Of a DNA stretch of 64,000 nucleotides, positions 8,500-10,877 are shown piece after piece. Within the stretch, counting starts at the first letter, position 1; each line of letters starts with the position of its first letter. Source of the stretch: Defluviitaleaceae bacterium (lineage in GTDB: Bacteria > Bacillota > Clostridia > Lachnospirales > WQUN01); the NCBI GenBank assembly GCA_009784025.1, contig WQVK01000005.1, forward strand, positions 1-64,000, in the 5' to 3' direction. The notes below the pieces were generated by a model, which ran no database searches, had not been told where the DNA came from, and saw only the letters and a list, made by a program, of their open reading frames with translations. The position numbers and the translations under genes were made by a program.

Positions 8500-8560
8500 A
8501 AAGGGAAATTTTTTCCTGATGCGCTCAAAAAATCTTGGCAAAACTTTACAGCTTTATAAT

Positions 8561-8676
8561 TATAGTGAAATAATTCGAAATTGGTCTCGCCTGTCGCGGC
8601 AAAAACGCCTGAGACGCCTTATCTCGGCGTTTCAGGCGCCGCTTGGGCGAGACCGTTTCTCATTTATTTCACTATA
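8561..8676 (-). repeat. MITE-like element, family 1
   Basis: TIR TATAGTGAAATAA...TTATTTCACTATA with inner stem CGCCTGAGACGCC-TTATCTC-GGCGTTTCAGGCG. Confidence 0.9.
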
Positions 8677-8682
8677 GTTTAA

Positions 8683-8923: not shown

Positions 8924-8931
8924 CTTAAATC

Positions 8932-9047
8932 TATAGTGAAATAAATGAGAAACGGTCTCACCCGAGCAGCGCCTAAAACGCCGAGATAAGGCGTTTCAGG
9001 CGTTTTTGCCGCGACAGGCGAGACCGATTTCGAATTATTTCATTATG
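8932..9047 (+). repeat. MITE-like element, family 1 (inverted relative to 8561..8676)
   Basis: TATAGTGAAATAAATGAGAAACGGTCTC...GAATTATTTCATTAT. Confidence 0.9.
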
Positions 9048-9066
9048 ATAAGAATCAAGTAAAGAT

Positions 9067-9444
9067 TTACTCTGCGTCTAAATTAGCCAAAGCCTTCATG
9101 GTTTGTATTGCTACCTTTAGTTCTTTCAGTTCCAGTTTAGACAACAGCACTGCCGCTTTGGCGCGGTAAACGTCTTCTTTAGTTTTTTCTTTCTTGGTTT
9201 CTAGATCTGGCTCTACAAAAAGCTTGTCTATGGTAATTTTTAACAATGTAGAGATTTGCTCTAGCACGTACATGTTTGCGCCGCGTTCGCCTCGCTCTAT
9301 TAGGCCCAGGTGCGGAGTAGTTAGCACAATAGATTTGGCTAATTCGTCTCTGGATAGGCCTCTTGCCATTCTTTCTCTTTTAATGTTTGCGCCTATTATT
9401 TGGTTTAGCCGCCGCACATCGTTTTTCATTCTGCTTCTCGCCAT
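9067..9444 (-). CDS. XRE-family HTH transcriptional regulator
   Basis: IIGANIKRERMARGLSRDELAKSIVLTTPHLGLIERGERGANMYVLEQIS HTH_3 pattern. Confidence 0.85.
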   Translation of the reverse strand: MARSRMKNDVRRLNQIIGANIKRERMARGLSRDELAKSIVLTTPHLGLIERGERGANMYVLEQISTLLKITIDKLFVEPDLETKKEKTKEDVYRAKAAVLLSKLELKELKVAIQTMKALANLDAE

Positions 9445-9511: not shown

Positions 9512-9574
9512 AATACTCACAGTATTCGACAAATCGCCAAATTGCGCTATTGTGAAAATACTCTCAGAGTTATT
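9512..9574. promoter_or_regulatory. Two operator-like palindromes in the divergent intergenic region
   Basis: AATACT-CAC-AGTATT (9512..9526) and AATACTCTCAGAGTTATT (9557..9574). Confidence 0.5.
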
Positions 9575-9577
9575 TTG

Positions 9578-9605
9578 TTGACATTGTCCAAAATTATGCT
9601 ATAAT
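9578..9605 (+). promoter_or_regulatory. Sigma-A-like promoter upstream of a small ORF
   Basis: TTGACA (9578..9583), 16-bp spacer, TATAAT (9600..9605). Confidence 0.7.
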
Positions 9606-9648
9606 TTATATGTAGTAAAAAATAAAATATGGAAAAGGGGGATTTGCC

Positions 9649-9717
9649 ATGTTATTTTATTGTCTATGTGAGTTGTGCGATCTAGTGATTGGGCCGCGTT
9701 GGCCAATATACTGCTAA
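9649..9717 (+). CDS. Candidate 22-aa Cys-rich small peptide MLFYCLCELCDLVIGPRWPIYC
   Basis: SD-like GGAAAAGGGGGA, ATG 9649, TAA 9715..9717, own promoter and terminator. Confidence 0.5.
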   Translation: MLFYCLCELCDLVIGPRWPIYC

Positions 9718-9740
9718 TTTAGCGGTTATTCACGGGATCA

Positions 9741-9767
9741 AAAAGTCCGCATTTTATGCGGACTTTT
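9741..9767 (+). terminator. Rho-independent terminator after the small ORF
   Basis: AAAAGTCCGCATTTTATGCGGACTTTT. Confidence 0.8.
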
Positions 9768-9794: not shown

Positions 9795-10877
9795 ATGTGC
9801 AGTAGATATGATGCAATAGATGCGTTTTTCGCACTAAGAAGCAATTTAGACAAAAGAGATTTTGGTAAAGTAAAAAGGAAGCTTTTAATTTTTTTAGAAT
9901 CCAATCCACAAAACCCTCACATTAAAGATATATTGACGTTGCTTGAATTGTTTGAAAATGAACATACTCATAAAGAATTTGAAAATTCGCTAAAAATGGC
10001 TGATTCTATAATAGATAGGCTAGTAGCATTGAAAGAATGGCAATTTTACGATATTCGGATTTTAGCTTCTTCAGTTGGATACGCGGCAGATTACAAAACC
10101 TCCAACGCCCTTGCAGAAAGAGCCATAGCCGCCATAGAGCATTTTAAAGATGATAAAGATTATCAATATATAAATTTCGCCATCCACTTTAACATAGCAA
10201 CCCGTATAGTGCGGGCGCGTTATTTCGATATAGAGTCAGACGCCAACAAGGAAGAAGAAATAAAAGAGCAAGAGCGACTTTTCACTAAGCATTTTAACGC
10301 AGCCTCGGCCATAAGCAAGGCGGGCGGAATGTGGGTTTCGGAAACTGTTTTGTTAATCATGAAAGGTCTATTCAAAAAAGATTATAGTCTAGTAGACGAA
10401 AACCTAAAGCTTTTGCAAACTAAGGGTGCAAGAGATGCATGGAAGATGATGCGCAATATAGTTAACGAATACAATGTCCTGGTGGGTAGCAGCATAAGCG
10501 CAATACAGCTTAACGTGCTAATAGGCAGCAATATAAGAAAAATCCGCGAACATAAAGGCCTAAGCATGGACGATATCGCAGATATGACAGGCATGACCTC
10601 ATCCCATATAGGCCTGCTAGAGCGCGGGGACCGCGGCGCATCTGTACTAAACCTATACAAACTAGCCGACGCCCTGGGCGTAAGCTGGGAAATGATATTA
10701 AAGGGCAGTGGCCTTTCCAGCAAAGAAGATTTAGAGCTAGAGGTGCAGCGCCAAAGGCTAATGGCCATGATACCCTCCATGCAAAAGGACGATTTAATAG
10801 CGCTAAACGAAGTCGCCGAACGGCTTTGCCGCTACAGCTCGCAATTCAACAGAAAACCCTTACAGCGTTTAAACTAA
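9795..10877 (+). CDS. Regulator with helical (TPR-like) N-terminal region and C-terminal XRE HTH
   Basis: C-terminal IRKIREHKGLSMDDIADMTGMTSSHIGLLERGDRGASVLNLYKLADALG. ATG 9795 preceded by AATAGGGAG. Confidence 0.7.
   Translation: MCSRYDAIDAFFALRSNLDKRDFGKVKRKLLIFLESNPQNPHIKDILTLLELFENEHTHKEFENSLKMADSIIDRLVALKEWQFYDIRILASSVGYAADYKTSNALAERAIAAIEHFKDDKDYQYINFAIHFNIATRIVRARYFDIESDANKEEEIKEQERLFTKHFNAASAISKAGGMWVSETVLLIMKGLFKKDYSLVDENLKLLQTKGARDAWKMMRNIVNEYNVLVGSSISAIQLNVLIGSNIRKIREHKGLSMDDIADMTGMTSSHIGLLERGDRGASVLNLYKLADALGVSWEMILKGSGLSSKEDLELEVQRQRLMAMIPSMQKDDLIALNEVAERLCRYSSQFNRKPLQRLN

Follow-up and report, generated by a model that had tools for sequence, protein, structure and literature searches.

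The 64,000-nucleotide stretch of DNA analyzed in this work (the window), from a Defluviitaleaceae bacterium, includes a locus that can be considered, with a probability of about 0.7, an RRNPP-like cassette composed of a peptide pheromone and its cytoplasmic receptor, in which the domain order of the receptor is swapped. In the proposed mechanism a promoter at nucleotide 9578 would generate a transcript encoding a 22-residue peptide that would either leave the cell and be re-imported, perhaps in a form shortened to the C-terminal portion (approximately GPRWPIYC), or act intracellularly. The peptide would bind the N-terminal Rgg-like domain of the regulator P0001 and alter the DNA binding by its C-terminal HTH, and presumably in this way reach target genes. 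A terminator located between the two genes would hold the level of the receptor below that of the peptide, and two palindromes would mediate autoregulation of the peptide promoter.

The promoter, the Shine-Dalgarno sequence, the 22-codon ORF, the hairpin, and two operator-like sites were all located where the preliminary description had put them. The promoter (TTGACA-16-TATAAT, nucleotides 9578-9605, + strand) matches the consensus at 12 of 12 positions, has a TG before the -10 hexamer (extended -10), and is the sole 12/12 match between nucleotides 8000 and 12000. It is followed on the same strand by the Shine-Dalgarno sequence AAGGGGGA (nucleotides 9635-9642) and by the micro-ORF (nucleotides 9649-9717), both read from the sequence. 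The 22 codons of the latter, which has counterparts in the family of loci described below, code for MLFYCLCELCDLVIGPRWPIYC, a candidate pheromone precursor. An intrinsic-terminator hairpin, AAAAGTCCGCAT-TTT-ATGCGGACTTTT, encompasses nucleotides 9741-9767 (+ strand; -16.4 kcal/mol, z -5.45), and read-through is plausible given the shortness of its T tract (TTTT followed by GC). The gene encoding P0001 (nucleotides 9795-10877, + strand) is co-directional with the micro-ORF, with a gap of 77 nt. It starts at the ATG at 9795, 28 nt past the hairpin and preceded by the Shine-Dalgarno sequence GGGAGC; an in-frame ATG at 9756, inside the hairpin, was rejected as the start. Since only weak promoter-like matches were found between the hairpin and this gene, P0001 is probably made by read-through of the micro-ORF transcript, at a level below that of the peptide. 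The unit had been called self-contained, and the promoter-to-hairpin arrangement is indeed present, but the regulator gene lies in the same direction and in the relatives the two genes are usually not separated by a terminator; the term thus covers only part of the picture.

P0001 is a 360-amino acid protein that was analyzed using Pfam, AF2 models, and structure matches. The Pfam domain HTH_3 occupies residues 247-299 (nucleotides 10533-10691, + strand) and is preceded by about 233 residues of helical character, a putative Rgg-like sensor domain (nucleotides 9795-10493, + strand) defined by structure matches and by Rgg_C matches in relatives. In the AF2 model of the full-length protein (pLDDT 82.5) residues 1-234 match the sensors of Rgg144, Rgg3, PlcR, Rap, ComR, PrgX, RopB, and NprR. 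As RRNPP structures might rank high by virtue of their own HTH, the sensor (residues 1-233) was modeled (pLDDT 92.4) and searched alone, and the ranking held: the first 14 matches were all RRNPP proteins or close relatives, counting among the latter 4ryk, an unnamed Listeria regulator. Among these 14 are Rgg144 (Z score 16.7 over 205 residues), Rgg3 (16.1), PlcR (14.7), and phage Rap (14.6); the first unrelated TPR protein, LGN, ranked after them with a Z score of 13.8, and the further RRNPP matches include ComR (12.4), PrgX (11.9), and NprR (11.8). The Foldseek E-values for the match of the sensor fold were above 0.001. At the amino acid level, out of 26 sensor domains of the family, Pfam Rgg_C matched 13 (best E-value 1.1e-5) and TIGR01716 RGG_Cterm five; the P0001 sensor has a weak match to Rgg_C. 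In 13 genomes there were six Rgg_C matches at E-values of 1e-3 or lower, all of them at loci of the P0001 family, and the genome matches were all under the curated cut-off (the best about 25 bits vs the cut-off of 27), as were the weak Rgg_C and RGG_Cterm matches of the family sensors. When PDB sequences were searched with a profile of the sensor domain, no RRNPP chain was retrieved, and the link to Rgg is therefore based on the fold and the weak Rgg_C matches. Taken together, the models and these matches indicate that the predicted P0001 sensor is, very likely, related to that of Rgg and carries the HTH at the opposite end. The proposal of an RRNPP-type peptide-responsive locus with a C-terminal HTH, made at the outset, is borne out by fold and, weakly, by sequence.

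Two genomes from the same bacterial family carry relatives of P0001, one at 6 places and the other at 17. Across the order Lachnospirales, a profile search of 295 genomes identified members in 13, which belong to three families and ten genera. The family is mostly present in multiple copies per genome, 17 in one case; as the order-wide scan scored the best 7 candidates per genome, the copy numbers are lower bounds. Outside the order, 391 genomes sampled from the class and 398 from the phylum yielded no full-length member and only stand-alone HTH proteins. A scan of genome contigs with the P0001 sequence alone detected no relative; a first family alignment was too diverse for scanning, and a second one served for the contig scan. 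Viral contigs had no match to the P0001 family, phage and plasmid records had matches to the HTH only, and searching at the DNA level with the intergenic sequence gave short weak matches only, in relatives. The named copies belong to Defluviitaleaceae MAGs (Lachnospirales), bins Emb289P1 and Lab288P1, whose hosts are the termites Embiratermes neotenicus and Labiotermes labralis (PMC7024585), and these named carriers suggest a possible restriction of the family to termites. No conserved neighbor or target gene was found at the family loci, the neighbors being unrelated and largely housekeeping genes. The genome that includes the window encodes OppA-type binding proteins, namely two SBP_bac_5 proteins, which are at most a prerequisite for re-import of the peptide by an oligopeptide permease. 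The receptors of loci L004 and L007 are extended C-terminally by about 60 residues that have no equivalent in the other receptors; this extension ends near ...NELLKKMREAGYINW and by eye looks like the alpha-subunit C-terminal domain of RNA polymerase.

The position of the micro-ORF is kept across the family. By inspection, a short ORF with a Shine-Dalgarno sequence was recognized upstream and on the same strand in about 49 of 57 loci (disrupted in one, L021), usually at a distance of 0-105 nt from the receptor gene. Loci L009, L011, L013, L058, L062, L064, L065, and L072 have no convincing micro-ORF, and their receptors are possibly orphans that listen to peptides made elsewhere. A blind count by fixed rules, demanding an ATG-initiated ORF and a Shine-Dalgarno match of at least 6, was positive at 20 of 57 loci and at 0 of 49 control genes (P 6e-7); with a match of at least 4 the figures were 39 of 57 and 10 of 49, respectively. 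Both kinds of count are given because the fixed rules miss peptides with weak Shine-Dalgarno sequences. Pairwise comparison of the family micro-ORFs gave a pS of 0.40 and a pN of 0.15, and when one pair per group was taken pN/pS was 0.42 in frame vs 1.25 and 0.96 in the other frames. As this ratio is low only in frame, the micro-ORFs evolve as translated peptides. Strong promoters are found upstream of the micro-ORFs of many relatives too, and a scan for hairpins separating the micro-ORF from the receptor gene was positive in the window and in about 5 of 31 relatives. The preliminary description had named conservation of the micro-ORF as a check and had considered that promoter and terminator conserved without it would favor a small RNA; what was found is a micro-ORF that is conserved in position and evolves as coding sequence, and a terminator that does not recur.

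The predicted peptides are diverse, as exemplified by MFLMGLIVSFIPFVPFGGGNLPGDFIRDMKL (L023), MRITISIKPNSNLIIGGDGWD (L069), and MKGKKRGIIAVLLALVMVATLATPLVADEATPPVRARSLDPGDEPE (L068). The L068 peptide reads as a classical secretory propeptide and is the only one with a clear signal sequence by eye; most of the others do not have the typical basic-plus-hydrophobic signal sequence, and many start hydrophobic without basic residues. Judged by eye, those from genomes G088 and G116 are mostly polar, MRITISIKPNSNLIIGGDGWD being an example, and the G088 peptides have no secretion signal. Tandem micro-ORFs are frequent, reaching four at L015, and at L015, L049, L061, L069, and L070 the array comprises three or four micro-ORFs that are similar without being identical, as if several related peptides were made per receptor. 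The sensors closest to that of P0001 are those of L036, L035, and L057 (32-35% identity), and the peptide encoded in the window has its best counterpart in that of L052, MLYFLYVASQLCDKYDWIIGPLTWKVGC, a weak match with a shuffle P of 2e-4, uncorrected for 25 comparisons. Cys-rich peptides are also encoded at several of the nearest relatives of the window locus. Over 26 pairs, the distance between sensors correlates with that between peptides (r 0.64; partial r 0.39 allowing for the HTH), a correlation to which common descent contributes.

Among the alternatives considered, it is rather unlikely that the peptide acts only inside the producing cell, where as a small protein it would serve the receptor as ligand or anti-repressor, with neither export nor cell-to-cell signaling. 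The scarcity of clear signal sequences and the polar, leaderless character of several peptides are what such a role would lead one to expect, but the classical secretory appearance of the L068 propeptide, the hydrophobic beginning of many peptides, like that of ComS and SHP precursors, and the OppA-type proteins encoded, common as these are in any case, argue against it. The preliminary description had left the role of the peptide as signal, toxin, or leader undecided, and of these the signal is favored. That the micro-ORF encodes a leader peptide controlling the receptor gene by attenuation at the 9741-9767 hairpin is improbable. Micro-ORF, hairpin, and receptor gene do lie in series on one strand within a short distance, and the leader folds better than shuffled versions (z -3.3), but a terminator at this point is not conserved among the relatives, the micro-ORFs occur in tandem with as many as four copies, their composition is wholly different between clades with no common run of one codon type, and a sensor domain of the pheromone-receptor type would stay unexplained.

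A small toxin controlled by P0001 or P0002, the leftward XRE regulator, would agree with the short and hydrophobic peptide of the window and its Cys residues. XRE regulators are often antitoxins, and type I toxins commonly occur in tandem. We nevertheless regard this role as very improbable, as the G088 and G116 peptides encoded at the same position are polar and ill-suited to a membrane toxin, the sensor of the regulator is that of a pheromone receptor, and neither a toxin family nor an antisense RNA was identified. An incidental ORF within a small regulatory RNA is likewise very improbable: although some 150 nt lie between a strong promoter and the hairpin of a terminator, what recurs in the family is micro-ORFs that carry Shine-Dalgarno sequences and show coding-type evolution, not the terminator, and an Rfam search of the window returned one tRNA only and no family at the micro-ORF unit.

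The operator-like sites lie between the promoter and the divergent gene P0002 (nucleotides 9067-9444, - strand), which encodes a 125-amino acid XRE regulator with a Pfam HTH_3 domain. Two palindromes had been claimed. The one at nucleotides 9512-9526, AATACTCACAGTATT, is perfect, with 6-bp arms and a 3-nt center, and the other, AATACTCTCAGAGTT, located 45 nt downstream at nucleotides 9557-9571, is present but imperfect. A search of the genome with 0 mismatches found the pair nowhere else, and because it occurs only here local autoregulation by P0001 or P0002 is suggested. A third operator-like site in the genome, inside an apparent recombinase gene, was set aside as probably due to chance. The HTHs of P0001 and P0002, which had been noted as very similar, share 35% identity over 75 residues, and P0002 may share operators with P0001. 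The idea of a divergent pair of regulators acting together was not supported, as no divergent XRE gene recurs at the loci of the relatives and P0002 is therefore not a conserved partner. P0002 belongs with other stand-alone XRE regulators of 110-150 amino acids (L002, L006, L109-L111) that are homologous to P0001 residues 228-342, approximately, and, unlike P0001, have no sensor domain. This homology in proteins devoid of the sensor suggests that the receptor may have arisen by N-terminal addition of an Rgg-like domain to a stand-alone XRE protein.

Among known systems, the streptococcal Rgg/SHP pairs (Rgg2, Rgg3, Rgg144) resemble the cassette in the sensor fold, in the weak Rgg_C sequence match, and in having a short, often hydrophobic peptide gene adjoining the receptor gene. 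They differ in that their HTH is N-terminal while that of P0001 is C-terminal, and in that SHP genes are divergent from or convergently overlap rgg (PMC13361665), whereas the micro-ORFs described here are upstream and co-directional. ComRS (ComR with ComS/XIP) shares the TPR-like sensor fold and a very short precursor, ComS of S. mutans having 17 residues (PMC13361665), but the cassette has the reversed domain order, a peptide gene upstream of the receptor gene, and no known competence target. The likeness to PlcR, NprR, PrgX, AimR, and Rap consists of the sensor fold (Z scores being those given above for PlcR, phage Rap, NprR, and PrgX) and an adjacent propeptide gene; tandem propeptides are known in RRNPPA systems too (PMC11343458). 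The RRNPPA receptors described have an N-terminal HTH or three-helix bundle and occur in Bacillales and Lactobacillales (PMC9765709), while the P0001 family has a C-terminal HTH and is found in Lachnospirales. Like RRNPP(A) systems, the cassette has a predicted TPR-like peptide-binding domain and, next to the receptor gene, a small gene for a propeptide, but the effector domain (HTH_3, residues 247-299) follows the sensor (residues 1-233) instead of being N-terminal to the TPR. As this domain order is a defining one, we do not file the cassette as an RRNPP member.

No description of the reversed order was found in the open-licence literature searched. RRNPP_detector discarded clusters with an N-terminal TPR region (PMC10075063), which could explain why the system was missed. 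It is reasonably likely that the family represents a separate Lachnospirales branch of cytoplasmic peptide-pheromone systems, in which an Rgg-type sensor was joined N-terminally to a stand-alone XRE protein, that provides up to 17 parallel peptide-receptor channels in one genome, with termite-gut bacteria as its named carriers, and that escaped detection because searches required the opposite order. If so, an N-terminal DNA-binding domain would be no general rule for RRNPP receptors, and the effect of peptide binding must be relayed to an HTH attached at the opposite sensor end. Lachnospirales, including uncultured termite-gut bacteria, would join the groups with cytoplasmic peptide signaling, and some fifty pairs of peptide and receptor, with peptides and sensors that co-vary, would be at hand. 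Dropping the domain-order filter could reveal further systems.

A TGTCGAA motif, which corresponds to the core of the Spo0A box, is found at nucleotides 9525-9531 (- strand), at -124 from the micro-ORF. Motifs of this type are present in 14 of 38 micro-ORF upstream regions, compared to 1.8 expected from composition and about 5 expected from the background rate of the family loci. In the closest relatives (L035, L036, L047, L048, L057, and L059) they lie at -109 to -124 from the micro-ORFs, and the orientation of the window motif is reversed relative to these. Spo0A was found in 10 of the 12 genomes examined, that of the window included, and a link between Spo0A and the micro-ORF loci is a lead only. 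In genome G029 two short genes containing Spo0A_C (G029:C14:15114-16050) are located just downstream of a receptor gene (G029:C14:13773-14600), and a separate Spo0A of the usual length is encoded on C20.

The region to the left of P0002 is flanked by two copies of a palindromic repeat of about 115-120 bp, at nucleotides 8559-8677 and 8930-9052, in opposite orientations. The repeat has a DNA fold z of -6.7 and is present at 85% or higher identity in at least 40 places of the 2.1-Mb genome (40 of 226 candidates scored). It looks like a MITE or a REP-type element.
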